NCBI GenBank assembly: GCA_900696645.1
Contig: CAADGV010000009.1
Span: 62,001-126,000, forward strand
From: an uncultured Chlorobiota bacterium
Lineage (GTDB): Bacteria; Bacteroidota; Ignavibacteria; UBA10030; UBA6906
Length of the DNA: 64,000 nucleotides
Direction of reading: 5' to 3'
Under the pieces are notes generated by a model, which was not told where the DNA came from, did no database searches, and saw only the letters and a program-made list of their open reading frames with translations. Positions 27,391 through 36,173 of this stretch are shown here, one piece after another. Within the stretch, counting starts at the first letter, position 1; each line of letters starts with the position of its first letter. Both the position numbers and the translations under genes were made by a program.

Positions 27391-27405
27391 CGGAGCAACG
27401 GGTTG

Positions 27406-27418
27406 TCACAATTTGTGA
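27406..27418. promoter_or_regulatory. palindrome upstream of first ORF6N gene
   Basis: TCACAA-T-TTGTGA lies 34-46 bp before the start of the ORF6N gene at 27452. It matches a palindrome inside that gene (27649-27665, GGTCACAAATTGTGACC). It is a candidate binding site for the encoded protein (inference). Confidence 0.5.
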
Positions 27419-27451
27419 TTACCCCACGAGCATATTCCTGACCAGACCATC

Positions 27452-27985
27452 ATGGCAAACATAGTTCCGACGGAAATCATTGAGCAACGCATCTTTCTCA
27501 TTCGGGGTGAGAAAGTGATGGTTGACCGTGACCTTGCTGAATTGTATCAGGTACAAACCAAGGTTCTCAATCAGAGCGTGAAGCGAAACCTTGATCGTTT
27601 TCCCCCCAACTTCATGTTTCAATTGTCCGAGAAAGAGCGGGATGAACTGGTCACAAATTGTGACCGGTTCGAGCGGTTGAAGCATTCAACTTCGTTGCCG
27701 TTTGTGTTTACAGAACAGGGCGACAGCGTTTTGCGCAGCAAGCGCGCCATTCAGGTCAACATTCAGATCATGAATACATTTGTGCAGTTGCGCCGTATGC
27801 TGGCGGACAACAAAGCGCTTGCCCAGCGGCTCGACGAACTTGAGCGAAAGTATGACGCCCAGTTCAAAGTCGTTTTTGATGCGTTACGAAAGCTCATTTC
27901 GCCGCCGGATCCGCCGAAACGACGCATCGGCTTTGGTGTTCGCGAAGGGAAAGCCCCGTACATAGTCATCAAAAGGAAATCATGA
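27452..27985 (+). CDS. ORF6N-domain DNA-binding protein
   Basis: This 177-residue protein has an ORF6N domain at about residues 8-95 (IRGEKVMVDRDLAELYQV, LNQSVKRNLDRFPPNFMFQLS). A coiled region and a basic proline-rich tail (PPDPPKRRIGFG) follow. The second ORF6N gene at 35542 reads LTEHGALQLASVLNS, whereas here it is FTEQGDSVLRS. About four residues are therefore missing. ORF6N domains occur in phage and bacterial regulators related to KilA-N, with largely unknown roles. The gene sits inside the uracil catabolism locus and overlaps the aminotransferase start by 4 bp. Codons for VTNCD coincide with the internal palindrome at 27649-27665. Confidence 0.85.
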   Translation: MANIVPTEIIEQRIFLIRGEKVMVDRDLAELYQVQTKVLNQSVKRNLDRFPPNFMFQLSEKERDELVTNCDRFERLKHSTSLPFVFTEQGDSVLRSKRAIQVNIQIMNTFVQLRRMLADNKALAQRLDELERKYDAQFKVVFDALRKLISPPDPPKRRIGFGVREGKAPYIVIKRKS

Positions 27986-29325
27986 GCACGAATCTCACAT
28001 CGCAAAAAATCACCGAACTCACCGCCCGCTACACGTACGGCACATGGCGCTTTCAGAAAGGGTGGAAGCCGCTGCATGTTGCAGACGCAGAAGGTTGCTA
28101 CTTCACGGATGGCAGCGGAAAGAAGTATCTCGACTTCTCTTCACAACTCATGTGTTCGAACCTCGGACACAAGAATCCCGCCGTGATCAAAGCGATTGAA
28201 GAACAAGCGCGTCATCTTCCGTTTATTGCTCCGGGCTTTGCCACGGATGTGCGGGCCGAGTTGAGCAAGATGCTGCTGGAGGTGTTGCCGGAAGGACTGG
28301 AGAAGTTCTTCTTCACGACATCAGGAACAGAAGCGAACGAGGCGGCGTTCAAGATTGCACGGATGTACACGGGAAAGACCAAAATCATTGCGCGCTATCG
28401 AAGCTATCACGGTTCAACAATGGGATCGATTGCGGCAACGAGTGACCCGCGCCGTTGGGCAATGGAGCCCGCGGGCAAAATTCCCGGCGTCATTTTTGCG
28501 CCCGAAGTGAATTGCTACAAATGTCCAATGATGCACACCTATCCCGGTTGCGGCATTGCGTGCGTCGAGTACATTGAACACATGATAGAGAATGAAAGCG
28601 ATGTTGCCGCAGTACTCGTAGAGCCGGTAGTCGGAACCAACGGCGTTCTCATTCCCCCCAAAGAGTATCTCCCGCGTCTTCGCCAGATTTGCGACAAGTA
28701 CAACGTGATGCTGATTGCCGATGAAGTAATGAGCGGATGGGGACGAACGGGCGAATGGTTTGCTGTGGATCATTGGGGAGTGAAGCCCGACATTCTTACA
28801 ACGGCAAAAGGAATTACCGCCGCCTACGTTCCGCTCGGACTCTGTGCAACCACGAAGAAGATTGCCGACTACTTCGACGATCATTACTTCTCTCATGGAC
28901 ATACATACGAAGCGCATCCGATCACGCTAGCGCCCGCAATTACCGCCATCAACGAGATGAAGCGGCTGAATACCAATCAGCGGGCAAGGGAACTTGGCAT
29001 GTATCTCGGCGAGAAGTTGCATGCCTTGAAACCGAAGCACCCCTCAATCGGTGAGGTCCGCGGCATGGGGCTCTTCTGGGCAGTCGAACTCGTGAAGAAT
29101 CAAGAGTCGAAAGAGCCGTTCAACACGAAATCAGACAAAGTCTCAGGCAAGCCGCTGGTCGTCGACAAGGTCGCCGCAGAAATGATGAAGAACGGTGTGT
29201 TCGTTCAGGCGTGGATCAGTCATTTTGTTGTCGCGCCGCCGTTGATTGTGTCGAAGGATGAAATTGATGAAGGGGTGAAAGCTCTGGACGAGGCGTTGAG
29301 AATCGCGGATGCGGAGGTACAATGA
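27982..29325 (+). CDS. class III omega-aminotransferase (beta-alanine/3-aminoisobutyrate candidate)
   Basis: This 447-residue PLP enzyme has SGTEANEAAFKIAR, YRSYHGSTMGS, the Asp-containing LIADEVMSGWGRTG and the Schiff-base lysine Lys276 in TTAKGITAAYVPLG. Class III aminotransferases use omega-amino donors. In this locus the donor should be beta-alanine or 3-aminoisobutyrate, giving malonate or methylmalonate semialdehyde for the dehydrogenase at 36174. It overlaps both neighbours by 4 bp (ATGA), implying coupled translation. Donor and acceptor identity are inferred. Confidence 0.88.
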   Translation: MSTNLTSQKITELTARYTYGTWRFQKGWKPLHVADAEGCYFTDGSGKKYLDFSSQLMCSNLGHKNPAVIKAIEEQARHLPFIAPGFATDVRAELSKMLLEVLPEGLEKFFFTTSGTEANEAAFKIARMYTGKTKIIARYRSYHGSTMGSIAATSDPRRWAMEPAGKIPGVIFAPEVNCYKCPMMHTYPGCGIACVEYIEHMIENESDVAAVLVEPVVGTNGVLIPPKEYLPRLRQICDKYNVMLIADEVMSGWGRTGEWFAVDHWGVKPDILTTAKGITAAYVPLGLCATTKKIADYFDDHYFSHGHTYEAHPITLAPAITAINEMKRLNTNQRARELGMYLGEKLHALKPKHPSIGEVRGMGLFWAVELVKNQESKEPFNTKSDKVSGKPLVVDKVAAEMMKNGVFVQAWISHFVVAPPLIVSKDEIDEGVKALDEALRIADAEVQ

Positions 29326-30668
29326 AAAACCTCGCTCCAAAACTGACGCACGAGCAATACGAAGCCAATTTTGCCGAACTTCATCCGCCGTTCACGCCTA
29401 ACTCCGCCGTTGCAGAAGCCAACAGATGCCTCTATTGCTATGACTCGCCCTGTATGAAAGCGTGTCCCACGCACATTGACATCTCAACCTTTATTAAAAA
29501 GATTGCAACGGGAAATATCAAAGGTTCAGCGAAGACGATTCTCAAATCGAACTGGGTCGCGCTTACGTGCGCAAAGGCGTGTCCGGTGGATGTGCTGTGT
29601 GAAGGTGCATGCGTGTACAACGAGCGCGGCGAAGAGCCGATTCAGATAGGCAGGCTGCAACGCTATGCAATTGATTGGTACTTTGAGCACGGGATGCCGC
29701 CGTTGTTTGCACCGGCACCGAAGAACGGCAAAAGTGTCGGCGTGATTGGTGCGGGGGCTGCGGGACTTTCATGCGCAGCCGAGGCGGCGTTGCTCGGCTT
29801 CGATGTGACAATCTATGATGCCAACGAGAAACCGGGCGGGCTCAACACATGGGGCATCGCTCCCTACAAGATGATGCAGGAAGATGCCTTCAAGGAAGTG
29901 AGGCTCGTGCAGAGTTTCGGCGTGAAGATTCAATCGGGCGTGTGCGCGGGGAAGGATATTGCGCTTGGCGATCTCGAAAAGAAACATGACGCGATCTTTC
30001 TCGGTGTCGGCCTCGGTTCGGCATCACGGCTTAACATTCCAGGCGAGAATCTGCCGGGCGTTGTGGATGCGCTTGATTTCATCGGGAAGGTTACGACGCG
30101 CAATTGGCATTCAGTTGATGTCGGCAAACGCGTTGCTGTTATCGGAGCGGGGAATACGGCAATTGATGCAGTGACGGAAGCGCGACGCCTCGGCGCCGAA
30201 CAGGTGATGATCATTTACCGGCGAAGCCGTGAAGAAATGCCCGCGTACGACTTCGAGTACGAACTTGCCAAAAGCGAAGGCGTGCAGTTTCAGTTCCTTA
30301 CCGCTCCGAGTCGCATTATCGGCAATGCGCATGTGGAGGCACTCGAGTGCATTCAGATGCAACTCGGCGAGCCTGATGAAGAAGGGCGGCGGCGACCGAT
30401 TCCTGTACCGCATTCCGAATTCCGGATTCCTGTTGATATGATCATCAAGTCTGTCGGACAAAACATTGAACAGACATTTCTCGCTCAGATTCCGAATCTC
30501 AAAATTGAAGGAGGAAAAGTCTGGGTTAATCCCTACACGTTGCAAACATCCAACCCGAAGTACTTTGCCGGCGGCGATTGCATCAACGGCGGAAAGGAAG
30601 TAGTGAACGCCGCGGCGGATGGGAAGAGGGCGGCGCATGGAATTCACGAGTTCTGTTTTGGCAAATAG
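29322..30668 (+). CDS. preT: NAD-dependent dihydropyrimidine dehydrogenase subunit PreT
   Basis: This 448-residue flavoprotein oxidises NADH and passes electrons to PreA. An N-terminal Fe-S domain (CLYCYDSPCMKACPTHID and CAKACPVDVLCEGAC) leads into an FAD site (GVIGAGAAGLSCA), an NAD site (VIGAGNTAIDAVTEARRLG) and a C-terminal GGDCINGGKEVVNA segment. The same layout forms the N-terminal half of eukaryotic dihydropyrimidine dehydrogenase. GGAGG precedes the ATG, which overlaps the aminotransferase stop. Confidence 0.92.
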   Translation: MKNLAPKLTHEQYEANFAELHPPFTPNSAVAEANRCLYCYDSPCMKACPTHIDISTFIKKIATGNIKGSAKTILKSNWVALTCAKACPVDVLCEGACVYNERGEEPIQIGRLQRYAIDWYFEHGMPPLFAPAPKNGKSVGVIGAGAAGLSCAAEAALLGFDVTIYDANEKPGGLNTWGIAPYKMMQEDAFKEVRLVQSFGVKIQSGVCAGKDIALGDLEKKHDAIFLGVGLGSASRLNIPGENLPGVVDALDFIGKVTTRNWHSVDVGKRVAVIGAGNTAIDAVTEARRLGAEQVMIIYRRSREEMPAYDFEYELAKSEGVQFQFLTAPSRIIGNAHVEALECIQMQLGEPDEEGRRRPIPVPHSEFRIPVDMIIKSVGQNIEQTFLAQIPNLKIEGGKVWVNPYTLQTSNPKYFAGGDCINGGKEVVNAAADGKRAAHGIHEFCFGK

Positions 30669-30678
30669 CGGAGATCCT

Positions 30679-32013
30679 ATGGCTGATTTATCGATCAATT
30701 GCGGTGGCATCAAGTCGCCGAATCCCTTCTGGCTCGCGTCGGCACCTCCGACGAACTCCGGTTACCAAGTCTGTAAAGCCTTCGAAGTAGGGTGGGGCGG
30801 TGCCGTCTGGAAAACCATCGGCGAGCCGGTGATGAATGTCTGCAACCGCTATGGCGCGGTTGACTACAACGGACAGAAAATTCTCGGCCTCAACAACATC
30901 GAGCTTATCAGCGACAGGCCGATTGAAACAAACCTGCGTGAGATTGCCGAAACGAAAAAGCTCTGGCCCGATCGTGCCGTGGTTGTTTCGTTGATGGTGG
31001 AATCGAAAAGGGAAACGTGGCACGATATCGTGAAGCGAACGATTGATACAGGGGCGGACGGCATCGAACTGAACTACGGTTGTCCGCACGGCATGAGCGA
31101 GCGGGGGATGGGCTCCGCCGTCGGACAAGTGCCGGAGTATTGCCAGATGATCACCGAATGGGTAATGGAAGCTTCGACAATTCCGGTGCTCGTCAAACTC
31201 ACCCCCAACGTGACGGATGTACGTTTTCCCGGCAGAGCAGCGAAGCGAGCAGGCGCCAACGGCATCTCCCTCATTAATACTATCAACACCATCATGGGCG
31301 TCGATCTTGATACATTCGAGTTGCAGCCCTCCGTTGGAGGAAAAGGAGGTCACGGCGGATATGCCGGACCCGCGGTCAAGCCGATCGCCCTCAACATGGT
31401 CTCGCAAATTGCACTCGATCCTGAAATCGACCTTCCTATCTCCGGCATCGGCGGTATTTCGACGTGGCGCGATGCACTTGAGTTTATCCTGCTGGGAGCT
31501 TCAAGCGTTCAGGTATGTACCGCGGCAATGCACTATGGCTTCCGCATCGTAGAAGACATGATTGAGGGGATGGAGAATTGGATGGAGGAGAAAGGCTACA
31601 CATCGCTTGACCAAGTTCGCGGCAAAGCATTGCAGCGCATTGACGATTTCGGCAATCTGAATCTATTGTTCAAAGCTGTTGCACGGATTGACGAATCGAA
31701 GTGTATTCAATGCAATCTCTGTTATATTGCATGTGAAGACACTGCTCATCAGTGCATTGATCTTGTTGACAAGGTCGTAGGATCGAACGGCTCGACGGAA
31801 ATCAGGAAACAGCCGAAAGTCCGCGAAAGCGATTGCGTCGGATGCAGGCTCTGCTACATCGTGTGCCCGGTAGAGAAGTGCATTTCCATGGTTCGTTTCG
31901 ACGATGGCACACAATCGAAAACATGGAACGAGTTGGTGAAAGAACTGCCGCAACCAATGACCTGGGAGGATTTGCGGGCGTTTCAGAAAAAACACGGAAT
32001 TGAAATTCATTAG
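30679..32013 (+). CDS. preA: NAD-dependent dihydropyrimidine dehydrogenase subunit PreA
   Basis: This 444-residue protein has an FMN-dependent dihydroorotate-dehydrogenase-like barrel (SINCGGIKSPNPFWLASAPP, ELNYGCPHG, GIGGISTWRDALEF). A dicluster [4Fe-4S] domain follows with CIQCNLCYIAC and CVGCRLCYIVCP. It reduces uracil or thymine to the dihydro form. It starts 10 bp after preT. The longer frame from 30619 overlaps preT coding sequence and has no better ribosome site. Confidence 0.93.
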   Translation: MADLSINCGGIKSPNPFWLASAPPTNSGYQVCKAFEVGWGGAVWKTIGEPVMNVCNRYGAVDYNGQKILGLNNIELISDRPIETNLREIAETKKLWPDRAVVVSLMVESKRETWHDIVKRTIDTGADGIELNYGCPHGMSERGMGSAVGQVPEYCQMITEWVMEASTIPVLVKLTPNVTDVRFPGRAAKRAGANGISLINTINTIMGVDLDTFELQPSVGGKGGHGGYAGPAVKPIALNMVSQIALDPEIDLPISGIGGISTWRDALEFILLGASSVQVCTAAMHYGFRIVEDMIEGMENWMEEKGYTSLDQVRGKALQRIDDFGNLNLLFKAVARIDESKCIQCNLCYIACEDTAHQCIDLVDKVVGSNGSTEIRKQPKVRESDCVGCRLCYIVCPVEKCISMVRFDDGTQSKTWNELVKELPQPMTWEDLRAFQKKHGIEIH

Positions 32014-32071
32014 CCGCAGCCTCCGCGGCATCACATCCCCCAATCATTTTTTTGTTGAAAGGAGTTGTTCA

Positions 32072-32560
32072 ATGAGCGAGCGAGATCAATTCATACAGAC
32101 GTGGGAACGCGAGTTCCAGACAACACTGAAAGTGTTGAAGGCGTATCCTGCTGACAAGCTCGATTTGAAGCCTGCGGAAAAGTCTAAGTCTGCGCGTGAT
32201 TTGTTGTTTGTGTTCGCCGCGGAACAACATTTCTTCTCTCAAATTCTCGATGGCGCGCTCGACTTCACCTCGTCTGCTCCCAAGCCACCCGCCACTCTCG
32301 ATGAGATTGTCAGTGCAACGGAGAAAGGCAATGCTGCTCTCGTGGCAAAAATCAAAGCAATGCCCGATGCAAGCTTCGACGAAAAGGTCGTATTCCCAGT
32401 GGCGCCAAAAACAATGCAGCCGGTTCGGAAGATGGATCTTTCCTGGATGATGTTGATGGATTCGATTCATCATCGCGGGCAGCTTTCTGTTTACATCAGA
32501 CTCGCCGGAGGCAAAGTGCCGTCCATCTACGGCCCGACGGCGGATGAGCCGTGGATGTAG
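32072..32560 (+). CDS. DinB-family protein
   Basis: This 162-residue four-helix-bundle protein belongs to the DinB/YfiT-like superfamily. Candidate metal His are at EQHFF and DSIHHRGQLSVY, followed by the GKVPSIYGPTADEP tail common in the group. Some members are thiol-dependent metal transferases; most are uncharacterised. AAAGGAG precedes the start. It lies between preA and dihydropyrimidinase genes, so it may be expressed with the locus, but no role in pyrimidine breakdown is known. Confidence 0.82.
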   Translation: MSERDQFIQTWEREFQTTLKVLKAYPADKLDLKPAEKSKSARDLLFVFAAEQHFFSQILDGALDFTSSAPKPPATLDEIVSATEKGNAALVAKIKAMPDASFDEKVVFPVAPKTMQPVRKMDLSWMMLMDSIHHRGQLSVYIRLAGGKVPSIYGPTADEPWM

Positions 32561-32589
32561 GATGTAAAGCTCACTACAAGGAGAAACAG

Positions 32590-33978
32590 ATGTCAATCCT
32601 CATCAAAAACGGCCGCATCATTACTGCTGAGCAAGACTATTCGGCCGATATTTATTGCGAAGATGAACATATCACGCGTATCGGCAAACAACTGGATGCT
32701 CCGCCGAACGCCACAGTCGTAGATGCTACGGGAAAGTATGTGTTTCCCGGCTTCATTGATCCGCACGTCCACATCTATCTCCCCTTCATGGGCACGTTCG
32801 CCAAAGACACACATGAATCGGCGAGCAAAGCGGCGCTCGTCGGTGGCACGACGACGTTCATCGAAATGATTTGCCAGTCGTGTTCAGAGCAGCCGCTCGC
32901 AGACGGATTCGAATTGTGGCGGGGCAAAGCTGAAGGCAACAGTGCATGTGATTTTACATTCCATCAGGCCGTGACTCGTCTCGACAAAGAGACGGAAGGC
33001 CAGCTGACGGAAATCGTCCGGAGCGGCATTACCAGTTTCAAAGTATTTCTTGCGTACAAAGGCGCGTTCGGCATTTCTGACGAGGAGTTGTATCATACGA
33101 TGCGTTTGGCGAAGAAGCTTGGGGTGATCGTTACAGCGCATTGCGAGAATGCAGACGCGGTACTCGCGTTACAGCAGAAGCTTCTTGCCGAAGGAAAGAC
33201 GGGCCCTGAATGGCATTATTGGAGTCGTCCCCCCCGCGTCGAAGCAGAAGGTGTGCATCACCTCCTGACGTTTGCAGAAATACATGGCACGCACTGTTAC
33301 CTCGTCCACACGAGCTGCGAGGAAGCGTTGCAGGAAGCATTGCTTGCGATGCAACGCGGTGTCAATGTGCGGGTCGAGACGCTGATTCAGTATTTGCTGC
33401 TGGATAAGAGTCACGCCGAACTTCCGAATTTTGAAGGGTCAAAGTATGTCATGTCGCCGCCGTTGCGCGACAAGCGGAATCAAGAGATTTTCTGGAACGC
33501 GTTGCGGCAAGGGTTCGTCTCGACGGTGGCTACCGATCACGCACCGTTTGATTTCAAGGGACAGAAAGAAATGGGACGCGGCGATTTTACGAAAATCCCC
33601 AACGGCATCCCGTCACTCGAAGATCGCATCAACCTGTTGTACACTCACGGCGTCTGCGAAGGCCGTCTCGATTTGAATACGTTCGTTGATTGCGCCAGCA
33701 CGCAAGCGGCGAAGTTGTTCGGTTTGTATCCGCGCAAAGGTACGATCGCTATTGGCAGCGATGCCGATCTGGTCGTGTACGATCCGACGTATCGCGGAAC
33801 GATTTCAGCCCGTACACATCACCTCAATCTTGACTATAGCGCCTTTGAAGGTTGGGAGATCAAAGGAAGGCCGCATGTCGTGACCGTGCGCGGCGAAGTT
33901 GCGGCACGTGACGGAAAGTTTGTCGGTACGGTCGGGCGCGGCAAGTTGCTCAAACGGGACACTCATGCCAGCAGATAG
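32590..33978 (+). CDS. dihydropyrimidinase
   Basis: This 462-residue cyclic amidohydrolase opens dihydrouracil or dihydrothymine to the N-carbamoyl amino acid. The binuclear metal site is visible: HVH (His59, His61), the carboxylated lysine Lys151 in FKVFLAYKG, His in TAHCEN and VHTS, and Asp in ATDHAPF. Hydantoinases share the fold, but the PreTA and ureidopropionase neighbours favour dihydropyrimidinase. AAGGAG precedes the ATG at 32590. Confidence 0.93.
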   Translation: MSILIKNGRIITAEQDYSADIYCEDEHITRIGKQLDAPPNATVVDATGKYVFPGFIDPHVHIYLPFMGTFAKDTHESASKAALVGGTTTFIEMICQSCSEQPLADGFELWRGKAEGNSACDFTFHQAVTRLDKETEGQLTEIVRSGITSFKVFLAYKGAFGISDEELYHTMRLAKKLGVIVTAHCENADAVLALQQKLLAEGKTGPEWHYWSRPPRVEAEGVHHLLTFAEIHGTHCYLVHTSCEEALQEALLAMQRGVNVRVETLIQYLLLDKSHAELPNFEGSKYVMSPPLRDKRNQEIFWNALRQGFVSTVATDHAPFDFKGQKEMGRGDFTKIPNGIPSLEDRINLLYTHGVCEGRLDLNTFVDCASTQAAKLFGLYPRKGTIAIGSDADLVVYDPTYRGTISARTHHLNLDYSAFEGWEIKGRPHVVTVRGEVAARDGKFVGTVGRGKLLKRDTHASR

Positions 33979-33995
33979 AATGACATTCTATTTTT
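33976..33995 (+). terminator. weak intrinsic terminator after dihydropyrimidinase
   Basis: TAGAATG-A-CATTCTA begins in the stop codon and is followed directly by TTTTT. The stem is short and AT-rich, so termination may be partial. Confidence 0.45.
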
Positions 33996-34000
33996 GCCAG

Positions 34001-34062
34001 CCCACGACTTAAGTCGTGGGATCAAAAAGCACCTTGACGTTTGCAAGTCGTTTCAACGACTT
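34001..34062. repeat. REP-like double palindrome
   Basis: A perfect 20-base palindrome CCCACGACTTAAGTCGTGGG (34001-34020) is followed by AAGTCGT-TTCA-ACGACTT (34045-34062), sharing the AAGTCGT core. The TTCA loop matches the hairpins at 21066-21113. Such units are typical of REP elements mobilised by Y1 transposases; no transposase gene is present here. Confidence 0.65.
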
Positions 34063-34120
34063 CCTCTAAAGCGGCTACACCGAGTAAGTAAGATCATAAT
34101 ATCATCAACCGCTCCTGATT

Positions 34121-35545
34121 ATGACATCGCTTATGAATTCCGAACTGGTCGAAGTCGACCTCTCCTCCGTCAAACACAGTCCCCTCATCAACGACGACAT
34201 CGCCCCGACAAAACTCTCCCAACGCACGTGGAGTACGTACAACATTGCTGCATTGTGGATCGGCATGAGCGTCTGCATTCCCACCTACATGCTTGCCAGT
34301 GGATTGATTGCGAGCGGCATGAATTGGTGGCAAGCCTTGATGACCGTGACGCTCGGGAATGTGATCGTCCTGATTCCGATGATCCTCAATGCACACGCCG
34401 GAACGAAATATGGCATTCCTTTTCCGGTGCTCGCCCGTGCGTCGTTCGGTACGCTCGGCTCGAATGTGCCGGCACTGCTGCGCGCTGTCGTTGCATGCGG
34501 CTGGTTCGGCATTCAAACGTGGATCGGCGGACAGGCATTTAACTCGATGATTATTCTTCTCTTGCCGCAGTGGGCAATCTTCGAGTGGGGGCCGGCAATC
34601 GGATTTCTCATTTTCTGGTCGATGAATGTGTACTTCATCGTGAAGGGAACGGAATCCATCAAATGGCTGGAGTCGTATGCCGCGCCGTTTCTGATTGCAA
34701 TGGGATTGGGCTTGCTTGCATGGGCATATTTTGCTATTGGCAGCTTCGGGCCGATGTTCTCACAGCCGAGCCAGTTCGAGACTGTCGGCGAGTTCTGGAA
34801 GGTGTTTGTTCCATCGCTGACCGGAATGGTGGGATTCTGGGCGACATTGTCTCTGAACATTCCCGACTTTACGCGCTACGCTCGAAGTCAGCGTGATCAG
34901 ATGATAGGACAGGCGATCGGACTTCCGCCAACGATGGCGTTATTCTCATTTATTGGAGTTGCTGTAACATCTGCAACGGTTGTGATTTTCGGAGAGGCGA
35001 TTTGGGATCCGGTTGTTCTTCTTTCGAAGTTCGAGAGTCCCGTTGTTATTTTGCTCGCACTCTTCTCACTTTCTGTCGCCACACTCACAACGAACATTGC
35101 AGCGAACGTCGTCTCGCCGGCAAACGACTTTGCCAATCTTTTCCCGAAAAAAATCAGCTTCAAAACCGGCGGCTTGATTACAGCCGTTCTCGGCATTGTG
35201 ATGATGCCATGGAAATTGCTTGCCGACTACGGCACGTACATTTTCGGGTGGCTTGTCGGCTATTCGAGTTTCCTCGGTCCGATTGCGGGCGTGTTGATTG
35301 CAGATTACTTTATTGTGCGAAAGCAGAGACTCAACGTCGCTGATTTGTATGTGCGGGGAGGCGAATACGAGTTTACCGGCGGGTTCAACATGAAAGCAGT
35401 GTACGCGCTTCTTGCCGGCGTTGTTCTTGCCCTCATCGGCTTGGTTGTGCCGGAGGTGCGCTTCTTGTATGATTACGCGTGGTTTGTCGGGTTTGCTGTT
35501 GCGTTTGGTATGTACGTGCTTTTGATGAAGCGCCGAACGCCTTAG
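34121..35545 (+). CDS. NCS1-family nucleobase:cation symporter
   Basis: This 474-residue transporter has about 12 predicted spans and NCS1 landmarks. These include the N-terminal TWSTYNIAALWIGMSVCIPTY, GIPFPVLARASFG, and a late segment with NVVSPANDFANLFPKKISF. NCS1 carriers import uracil, thymine, allantoin, hydantoins or cytosine. Placement beside the reductive pyrimidine genes points to uracil or thymine. A second ATG lies at 34133; ribosome-site evidence does not separate the two. Its last 4 bp overlap the convergent ORF6N gene. Confidence 0.9.
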   Translation: MTSLMNSELVEVDLSSVKHSPLINDDIAPTKLSQRTWSTYNIAALWIGMSVCIPTYMLASGLIASGMNWWQALMTVTLGNVIVLIPMILNAHAGTKYGIPFPVLARASFGTLGSNVPALLRAVVACGWFGIQTWIGGQAFNSMIILLLPQWAIFEWGPAIGFLIFWSMNVYFIVKGTESIKWLESYAAPFLIAMGLGLLAWAYFAIGSFGPMFSQPSQFETVGEFWKVFVPSLTGMVGFWATLSLNIPDFTRYARSQRDQMIGQAIGLPPTMALFSFIGVAVTSATVVIFGEAIWDPVVLLSKFESPVVILLALFSLSVATLTTNIAANVVSPANDFANLFPKKISFKTGGLITAVLGIVMMPWKLLADYGTYIFGWLVGYSSFLGPIAGVLIADYFIVRKQRLNVADLYVRGGEYEFTGGFNMKAVYALLAGVVLALIGLVVPEVRFLYDYAWFVGFAVAFGMYVLLMKRRTP

Positions 35546-36102
35546 CGATCATTTGCTTCCGGTGGCCGGAACCCGATGGGTCGCCGCTTCGGCGGCTCGG
35601 GAGGTTCCATCAGTTGGCGTATTGCCTGAATGATTGAGGTGATGGTTTCGTCGTGCGTTGCAATTTTGCGTTCAAGCTCTTCCAACTTATGGGCAATTTG
35701 TGTGTGAGAGGAGAGAACCTCGCGTAATTGCACAAAGGCTCGCACAATAAGGATGCTCACCTCTGTTGCTATCGGGCTGTTGAGGACGCTGGCAAGTTGC
35801 AGAGCCCCATGTTCAGTAAGGACGTATGGCGGTCTTCGCAAGCCCATTTTTGCCGACGGTTTGGTGGTCGCAAAATGCGACCTCCAATTCTCCAACTCCG
35901 CTTTGTTCAGGCGGAACATAAAATCCCCCGGAAACCGCTCCTTATTGCGCTTCACTTGTTCGTTAAGGCGTTTCGTACTCACGCCATAAAGACGGGCAAG
36001 GTCCGAGTCGAACATTACGCGCTTCCCGCGAATCAGCATAATTGAACTTTGGACACGCTCAAGCGGGACAATGGAAGATGATTTCAATTGCGAAGTCTTC
36101 AT
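35542..36102 (-). CDS. ORF6N-domain DNA-binding protein (second copy)
   Basis: This 186-residue protein is a paralogue of the one at 27452. It has an ORF6N domain (IRGKRVMFDSDLARLYGV, LNEQVKRNKERFPGDFMFRL), the LTEHGALQLASVLNS segment, a coiled region and a PPEPPKRRPIGF tail. Codons for RSHFAT coincide with palindrome GGTCGCAAAATGCGACC (35866-35882). A related palindrome lies upstream at 36149-36165. In the first ORF6N protein the palindrome falls at the same aligned position but is read in a different codon phase. This suggests the DNA, not the peptide, is conserved. It is transcribed downstream of the semialdehyde dehydrogenase gene. No Shine-Dalgarno is visible. Confidence 0.85.
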   Translation of the reverse strand: MKTSQLKSSSIVPLERVQSSIMLIRGKRVMFDSDLARLYGVSTKRLNEQVKRNKERFPGDFMFRLNKAELENWRSHFATTKPSAKMGLRRPPYVLTEHGALQLASVLNSPIATEVSILIVRAFVQLREVLSSHTQIAHKLEELERKIATHDETITSIIQAIRQLMEPPEPPKRRPIGFRPPEANDR

Positions 36103-36148
36103 TCAGGATCGTGTTCTTGATTTTCCGTGTTTCACCGTCAACGTAGTA

Positions 36149-36165
36149 GGTCGCAACTTGCGACC
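36149..36165. promoter_or_regulatory. palindrome upstream of second ORF6N gene
   Basis: GGTCGCAA-C-TTGCGACC is perfect. It lies 47-63 bp before the ORF6N start and just after the stop of the dehydrogenase gene. It matches the palindrome inside the ORF6N coding region, and the likeness extends through the next four bases (TCCA). Confidence 0.55.
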
Positions 36166-36173
36166 TCCATTTT

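Follow-up and report, generated by a model that had tools for sequence, protein, structure and literature searches.

Why do genes for predicted DNA-binding proteins carry long palindromes inside their own coding sequences, and what might bind there? The question is raised by two chromosomal genes of the ORF6N family in a 64,000-nucleotide stretch of DNA (the window) from an uncultured Chlorobiota bacterium (assembly GCA_900696645.1, contig CAADGV010000009.1, positions 62,001 to 126,000 of the forward strand), each of which has one palindrome within the gene and another upstream. A comparison across the family indicates that ORF6N is probably a winged-helix protein whose binding site is a palindrome of 25-27 base pairs (bp) in its own gene, serving dimer binding and autorepression, with recognition helix, site and wing forming one cassette. 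A preliminary description of the window had reported four palindromes, and all four were located at the positions given there. The features of the two genes are as follows, with recognition-helix positions predicted from an AlphaFold2 model of gene 1 and from the mutual information between alignment columns and palindrome described below.

27452..27985, plus strand: ORF6N gene 1, 177 amino acids (open reading frame listing; Pfam PF10543, 96.0 bits against a cut-off of 27.8)
27557..27586, plus strand: predicted recognition-helix codons of gene 1, residues 36-45 (AlphaFold2 helix 36-45; the top mutual information columns outside the palindrome are 34/35/38/39)
Within this helix: predicted specificity residues K37, V38, Q41 and S42, corresponding to alignment columns 34, 35, 38 and 39
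27644-27670: internal 27-bp palindrome of gene 1, GAACTGGTCACAAATTGTGACCGGTTC, half-site class CA (GGTCACA), which fits the pairing of V..Q with CA
27677..27694, plus strand: putative wing codons of gene 1 (alignment columns 73-78, covarying with the outer arms, d10-d12)
27399..27425: imperfect palindrome upstream of gene 1, core 27406-27418, centre 27412
35542..36102, minus strand: ORF6N gene 2, 186 amino acids (open reading frame listing; PF10543, 107.6 bits against a cut-off of 27.8)
35947..35976, minus strand: predicted recognition-helix codons of gene 2 (TKRLNEQVKR, with R45/E48), their position taken from the alignment with gene 1
35861..35887: internal 27-bp palindrome of gene 2, TTGGTGGTCGCAAAATGCGACCTCCAA, half-site class CG (GGTCGCA), which fits the pairing of R..E with CG
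36144..36170: palindrome upstream of gene 2, GGTCGCAACTTGCGACC, centre 36157, between the start of gene 2 and the stop of the neighbouring gene

In both genes the upstream palindrome is less perfect than the internal one. ORF6N genes were gathered with the Pfam profile from 60 related genomes and with peptide patterns from named genomes; five weak or fragmentary profile places were left out, and after removal of duplicates the final set, tandem genes included, held 186 distinct genes. The peptide pattern DELVTNCD is itself encoded by the palindrome, and genes found by pattern were scored apart from those sampled by profile. Palindromes of odd length were scored at +1 per complementary pair and -2 per mismatch. 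A palindrome with a score of at least 6 was present at a single aligned position of the reading frame in 177 of the 186 genes; of the nine genes that carry none, eight are partial matches and one (L013) is full-length. A score of at least 9 at the canonical place was reached by 64 of 75 full-length profile-sampled genes and by 71 of 75 pattern-found genes, compared with 1.7% of 3000 synonymous-codon shuffles, and the median score was 12 in the real genes versus 4 in the shuffles. An excess of palindromes among other ORF6N genes had been set beforehand as a test, and inside the gene this excess was found.

The extent of the element was read from the complementarity of its arms, counted in 152 genes of an earlier 157-gene set that lacked tandem genes sharing a locus. 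With d denoting the distance from the centre, positions d2-d13 were complementary in 83-100% of these genes, but d14 in only 41%, and this drop indicates an element of 25-27 bp with a sharp edge. The arms span 12-17 bp around a centre of 1-3 bases; positions d4, d5 and d7-d13 are variable, mostly changing on both sides together, and 65 distinct half-sites were counted over d12-d2. The same feature was seen in two further samples. Among the best-scoring places in the phylum, 28 new loci were collected and 27 genes kept, all 27 of which scored at least 7 (null 4.1%), and among 76 viral loci 72 genes were kept by profile coverage, of which 67 scored at least 7 (null 4.9%). It should be noted that the Pfam profile spans the palindrome stretch as peptide, whereas the viral search patterns do not. 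Some ORF6N genes (L058, L018/L120) have two site-like stretches in frame by way of a short in-frame insertion, and tandem arrays of two or three ORF6N genes occur at L145, L141, L128, L138 and L144.

A palindrome in a coding sequence could arise incidentally from a conserved peptide (LRSQxVTS, VTNCD) combined with codon habit, and the peptide does lie within the conserved Pfam domain. However, the palindrome is lost on synonymous shuffling, the many half-site classes encode different peptides with compensated arms, and the identical DNA, translated in two phases, yields unrelated peptides, for example LRSQFVTS and VTNCD. The different codon phases reported for the internal palindromes of genes 1 and 2 were seen here as well, and across the family the palindrome is read in one phase in 137 genes, in a second in 39 genes and in the third in a single gene. 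Codon shuffling and the use of two phases point the same way, peptide constraint was dropped on these grounds with a negligible chance of being correct, and the proposal that selection acts on the DNA palindrome rather than on the peptide is supported by sequence comparison.

Alternatively, the palindrome could act as a hairpin in the messenger RNA, serving in attenuation, as an RNase III site or as a thermometer, and arms of 12-17 bp around so short a centre could indeed fold as RNA. Among 2124 arm cells, however, the mismatches comprised 39 G.T, 41 A.C and 63 others, so that G-U pairs are not tolerated above A.C; this absence of G-U tolerance indicates a symmetric DNA site rather than an RNA stem. 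An RNA element would also leave unexplained the covariation, in both reading phases, between the half-site and the recognition helix. The RNA hairpin was dropped on the mismatch types and appears highly improbable.

When the mutual information of d4/d5 with the protein columns was calculated for 149 genes, column 38 stood at 1.62 bits and column 35 at 1.30 bits above shuffled values; the next columns, 68 and 65, are encoded by the palindrome, and among columns outside 60-80 the 95th percentile was 0.21. Columns 34, 35, 38 and 39 lie outside the palindrome-encoded residues and fall on helix 36-45 of the gene 1 model. The pair d7/d8 tracks column 34, where K occurs with G at d7 in 103 of 104 genes, and d10-d12 covaries with columns 73-78. 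The residues at columns 35 and 38 are paired with the half-site almost as words in a code: x..Q (x = V, A, T, I, M or E) occurs with CA in 75 of 76 genes, R..E with CG in 37 of 38, x..K with TC in 16 of 16, Y..R with GA in 7 of 7, R..Q with TG in 3 of 3 and S..L with TT in 4 of 6, while x..R pairs other than Y..R are linked more loosely to the half-site. In the 96 profile-sampled genes alone the counts were 24/25 for R..E with CG, 21/22 for V..Q with CA, 8/8 for A..Q with CA and 6/6 for Y..R with GA. Both window genes follow this code, gene 1 with V..Q and TCACA and gene 2 with R..E and TCGCA, and the difference between TCACAA and TCGCA that had first been noticed between them corresponds to it.

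The code was then carried from one reading phase to the other. A map built from phase-0 genes predicted 28 of the 31 phase-1 genes that it covered (39 in total; shuffled mean 15.7), and the reverse map from phase-1 genes predicted 78 of 83 covered phase-0 genes (137 in total; shuffled mean 39.8). Because prediction works across phases, the helix follows the DNA and not the amino acids encoded there. Relatedness was controlled with 73 non-overlapping pairs of near relatives, chosen by the C-terminal part of the protein. All 31 pairs with the same helix had the same site, and 32 of the 42 pairs with different helices had different sites; the remaining 10 of the 42 are residue pairs that share a code word (for example V..Q/A..Q or N..K/D..K). 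For the held-out genes of the phylum, all 25 predictions were right and 2 genes were uncovered (shuffled mean 9.4, maximum 19), and for the viral genes 52 of 68 predictions were right (shuffled mean 19.5, maximum 31); viral and cellular ORF6N genes share the same palindrome and the same code. Taken together, these data support, by covariation, the predicted recognition by an ORF6N protein of the palindrome in its own gene, and the suggested co-evolution of each protein with a private site inside its gene is borne out insofar as the half-site covaries with the recognition-helix residues.

In the arrangement that we propose, the palindrome placed between the recognition-helix codons and the wing codons would be the binding site of the very protein that they encode. 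The helix residues in columns 34, 35, 38 and 39 would read d4/d5 and d7/d8, the variable inner bases of a half-site, the wing in columns 73-78 would read the outer positions d10-d12, and the protein would bind the internal palindrome as a dimer. Bound protein may then act as a roadblock to RNA polymerase elongating along its own gene, giving negative autoregulation, with sites in the promoter region assisting repression in a minority of genes. With helix, site and wing adjacent, specificity could change or be exchanged as one cassette, protein and site staying in register. Autorepression is probably the likeliest use of an internal operator. The model of gene 1 (mean predicted local distance difference test score 82.5) has helices at residues 25-32 and 36-45, considered as part of a possible helix-turn-helix type fold, and a helical C-terminus; a fold search with it gave weak matches, the best with a Z of 6.4, in lists where the lack of a family from the matches excludes nothing.

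The distribution of the sites outside the gene bears on whether the palindrome is instead a dispersed palindromic repeat (of the repetitive extragenic palindromic, REP, or Rickettsia palindromic element, RPE, kind) that inserted in ORF6N genes. A search of the whole 4.2 Mb source genome with GGTCRCAANTTGYGACC, allowing up to 2 mismatches, returned 3 places, namely the internal sites of genes 1 and 2 and the upstream site of gene 2 (the upstream copy of gene 1 is too degenerate for this search), and a control pattern returned 2 forward and 2 reverse. Across 31 genomes the exact pattern was found 12 times, with 11 of these places inside an ORF6N gene or immediately upstream of one, compared with 0 for the control. 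In the fetched loci, which amount to 626 kb and are mostly centred on ORF6N genes, 155 of 180 family palindromes lay inside ORF6N homology. The other 25 lay outside it, 21 of them within 170 nucleotides, a nearness that arises partly by construction; such full-length copies outside the gene are what a dispersed repeat would produce. Against this stand the small number of copies, the single aligned position in the reading frame and a sequence that obeys the helix code. The dispersed repeat, which is barely credible, was dropped on the genome searches, where no copies were found far from genes of the Bro network (ORF6N, Bro-N and KilA-N) at the stringency used, except on contig 223 of genome G028. 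There, at L175:1152, a full-length family palindrome stands with no ORF6N homology found nearby, either with a relaxed profile or by eye. At another locus (L041:1464-2880), two tandem ORF6N genes are surrounded by six free-standing palindromes of differing classes.

Upstream copies were less regular than internal ones. At a threshold of at least 12 of 16 letters, a gene's own site was found upstream in 21 of 177 genes, when the sites of other genes gave a mean of 15.7 (maximum 21) and shuffled flanks gave 1.5; from an earlier count of 20 upstream matches, three chance-like ones had been set aside. At 13 of 22 upstream sites the class was that of the internal site, where permutation gave a mean of 9.0 (p=0.027). 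Half-site agreement within each gene, claimed for the window, thus holds for genes 1 and 2 and is weak in general, and these figures together make a matching upstream copy a weak trend and not a rule; the claim of a matching copy as a general feature was not upheld. Privacy of the upstream copy to its gene likewise did not emerge from the comparison with other genes' sites, and DNA looping through helical phasing gave no signal. Sequence comparison indicates that the upstream palindromes, which also occur at viral loci, are real but are not clearly gene-private.

The history of the locus was examined in related genomes. Gene 1, whose closest named relative (76% identity) is in an Ignavibacteriae genome, is flanked by what read as a nitrilase-like gene and an aminotransferase-like gene; the gene upstream of gene 2 reads as dehydrogenase-like. 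A third ORF6N gene of the source genome, on a different contig, has an imperfect palindrome of another class, GAACTGGTGACAAATTGGCACCGGTTC. In genomes G006, G009 and G014 the nitrilase-like and aminotransferase-like genes are adjacent and no ORF6N gene was found between them. An ORF6N gene is present near the aminotransferase gene in G000 and G002, in the latter ahead of it, and G001 (L187, contig 4) has an ORF6N remnant between the same neighbours, with start and end readable and the middle largely gone. Presence, remnant and empty junctions among these genomes indicate gain and decay of a single-gene unit. Upstream of the G001 remnant is a palindrome with 15-bp arms and a score of 9 that reads by eye like an ORF6N internal site, and this internal-site-like stretch corresponds to the upstream palindrome of gene 1.

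Such a history could mean that the site serves as a mark for recombination or homing of the gene, with bound protein promoting conversion or movement and upstream copies being scars of older copies. The scattered single-gene unit would fit, as would the upstream site of L049, which sits in a decayed ORF6N copy. However, no palindrome above score 4 was found at the empty junctions of G006, G009 and G014, and a Pfam search of genes 1 and 2 found no nuclease or recombinase domain. A role in recombination or homing seems very unlikely. The proposed exchange of a cassette has parallels in close relatives. L066 and L105 are 83-96% alike over the first 90 nucleotides and 93-100% alike at nucleotides 330-480, but only 43-56% alike at nucleotides 120-150 and 180-270; the flanks of L011 and L132 are alike, and identity falls to 40% in parts of the helix-site-wing segment. 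This divergence fits a specificity cassette, as judged from the aligned genes. Faster evolution of the specificity residues was considered and rejected: in 48 close pairs, columns 34/35/38/39 differed at 0.39 and columns 85-150 at 0.14, but values up to 0.75 occur in other columns and the pairs were picked by C-terminal likeness, so that diversifying selection is not shown.

Several observations weigh against an autorepressor that recognizes its own coding sequence. L013 has no palindrome of score 6 despite being full-length. An R..E gene, L025, has a TC site and is the sole break of the R..E code, perhaps as a recent recombinant. Sixteen of the 68 viral predictions were wrong, 14 of them in the x..R or R..Q classes. 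A promoter-proximal copy is found in a minority of genes (the 21 of 177 given above), 9 of 22 upstream sites belong to another class than the internal site, and for 22 sites the distance from upstream to internal site was not helically phased (p about 0.27 at a period of 10.5). The roi gene of phage HK022, weakly related, has no internal palindrome beyond 6-bp arms. Finally, a protein whose sole recognizable target would be its own gene gives the host no evident benefit.

A rival explanation is a self-addressed immunity or incompatibility, in which the protein would bind and silence the same reading frame in an incoming phage, plasmid or mobile copy, autoregulation being a by-product. The palindrome and code shared by viral and cellular genes are in line with this, as are the source genome, which has no other target within 2 mismatches, the close relatives that in some cases differ in helix and site together, and the two N-terminal cassettes of the E. 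coli gene dinD described below. However, genes of one genome do not avoid a shared class. Within-genome ORF6N pairs shared a site class in 12 of 144 cases (permutation mean 11.5), versus 351 of 4416 pairs taken from different genomes, and an earlier gene set likewise gave no signal of avoidance (7/81 versus 251/2922). In addition, among close pairs the specificity residues are not conspicuous as the fastest-changing ones. We consider immunity or incompatibility rather unlikely. The two alternatives offered in the preliminary description thus part here: an autoregulator whose operator lies inside the gene that encodes it remains the best reading, given the DNA-level conservation and covariation, and the incompatibility variant is not borne out by class avoidance.

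The proposed autorepressor can be set beside several known systems. The window genes are of the same sequence family as the ORF6N-family proteins in the list of PMC10111431, and a phage relative is listed as an antirepressor in PMC6591296. No description of the internal palindrome or of a self-recognition code was found in the literature searched, which took in few subscription papers and not the work on DinD. Repressor operators inside genes are known from lac O2 in lacZ and gal OI in galE, which are single cases where the gene that holds the operator does not encode the repressor. The ORF6N site would resemble them in being a palindromic operator set in transcribed coding sequence, but differs in that it lies in the sequence encoding the DNA-binding domain, is family-wide and covaries with that domain. 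Toxin-antitoxin and plasmid autoregulators acting on inverted repeats share the self-binding and autorepression predicted for ORF6N; the sites of those regulators precede the genes, in the promoter or operator. Roi of HK022 (Phage_pRha and ANT domains) is a DNA-binding regulator whose N-terminal family is weakly related to gene 2, below the cut-off: gene 2 matched Phage_pRha (PF09669) at 18.2 bits, under the cut-off of 29.9 (E 0.0039). As a precedent roi was set aside: it has no long palindrome, and binding of Roi to a palindrome within roi was not confirmed.

A similar strategy was applied to the Bro-N and KilA-N domains (samples L321-L350 and L352-L381), in which 20 of 30 and 24 of 30 loci, respectively, could be parsed, a few sharing one palindrome. 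A score of 9 was reached by 11 of 20 Bro-N genes (null 7%) and 15 of 24 KilA-N genes (null 6.7%). A further tabulation placed 13 of 15 Bro-N palindromes scoring at least 9 at 106-147 nucleotides into the domain match; for KilA-N, 12 of 15 lay 152-194 nucleotides into it, and 9 of 15 were centred on GAATTC. Lower-scoring palindromes of both domains look like chance. These palindromes are of sequence families other than that of ORF6N, and the likeness lies in a long palindrome within the segment encoding the DNA-binding domain, in about half of the genes tested. The Bro-N gene dinD of E. coli K-12 is among the examples.

L351:7761-8585: E. coli K-12 dinD (Bro-N), with a 32-bp near-palindrome, TGACCATTTCGAGGAGATCCTCGATATGGTCA, at nucleotides 173-205

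The score of this near-palindrome was reached by 0 of 500 shuffles, and its inner 30 bp form 13 of 15 pairs (p=0.0005). E. coli dinD occurs with two N-terminal Bro-N cassettes (L390-L393), one matched in 1881 and the other in 2787 of 5426 genomes. The two cassettes are 43-60% alike at nucleotides 30-240, although the 200 nucleotides upstream are 96-100% alike and the sequence after nucleotide 270 is 83-100% alike. In the second cassette the palindrome fell short of significance (10 of 15 pairs, p=0.09). Extension of the self-site idea to Bro-N and KilA-N is offered as a lead from sequence. At its widest, the whole Bro network, E. coli DinD included, would be self-addressed, with the coding DNA of each domain as its main target and swappable cassettes as private gene addresses shared by bacteria and phages, by which a resident copy may silence incoming kin independently of promoters; this is a tentative possibility, to which we give a modest chance.

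For the ORF6N family itself, a protein-DNA recognition code is legible from sequence alone, and it is legible because every gene brings its own site. The specificity of the family is thereby predictable and testable at once, and there is now a handle on widespread genes of unclear function, namely ORF6N genes that occur singly and perhaps also the dinD gene of E. coli K-12. The coding sequence is doubly constrained, as a peptide and as a likely binding site for that same peptide, and if the only target of the protein is its own gene, the purpose of such a gene becomes a sharp question.

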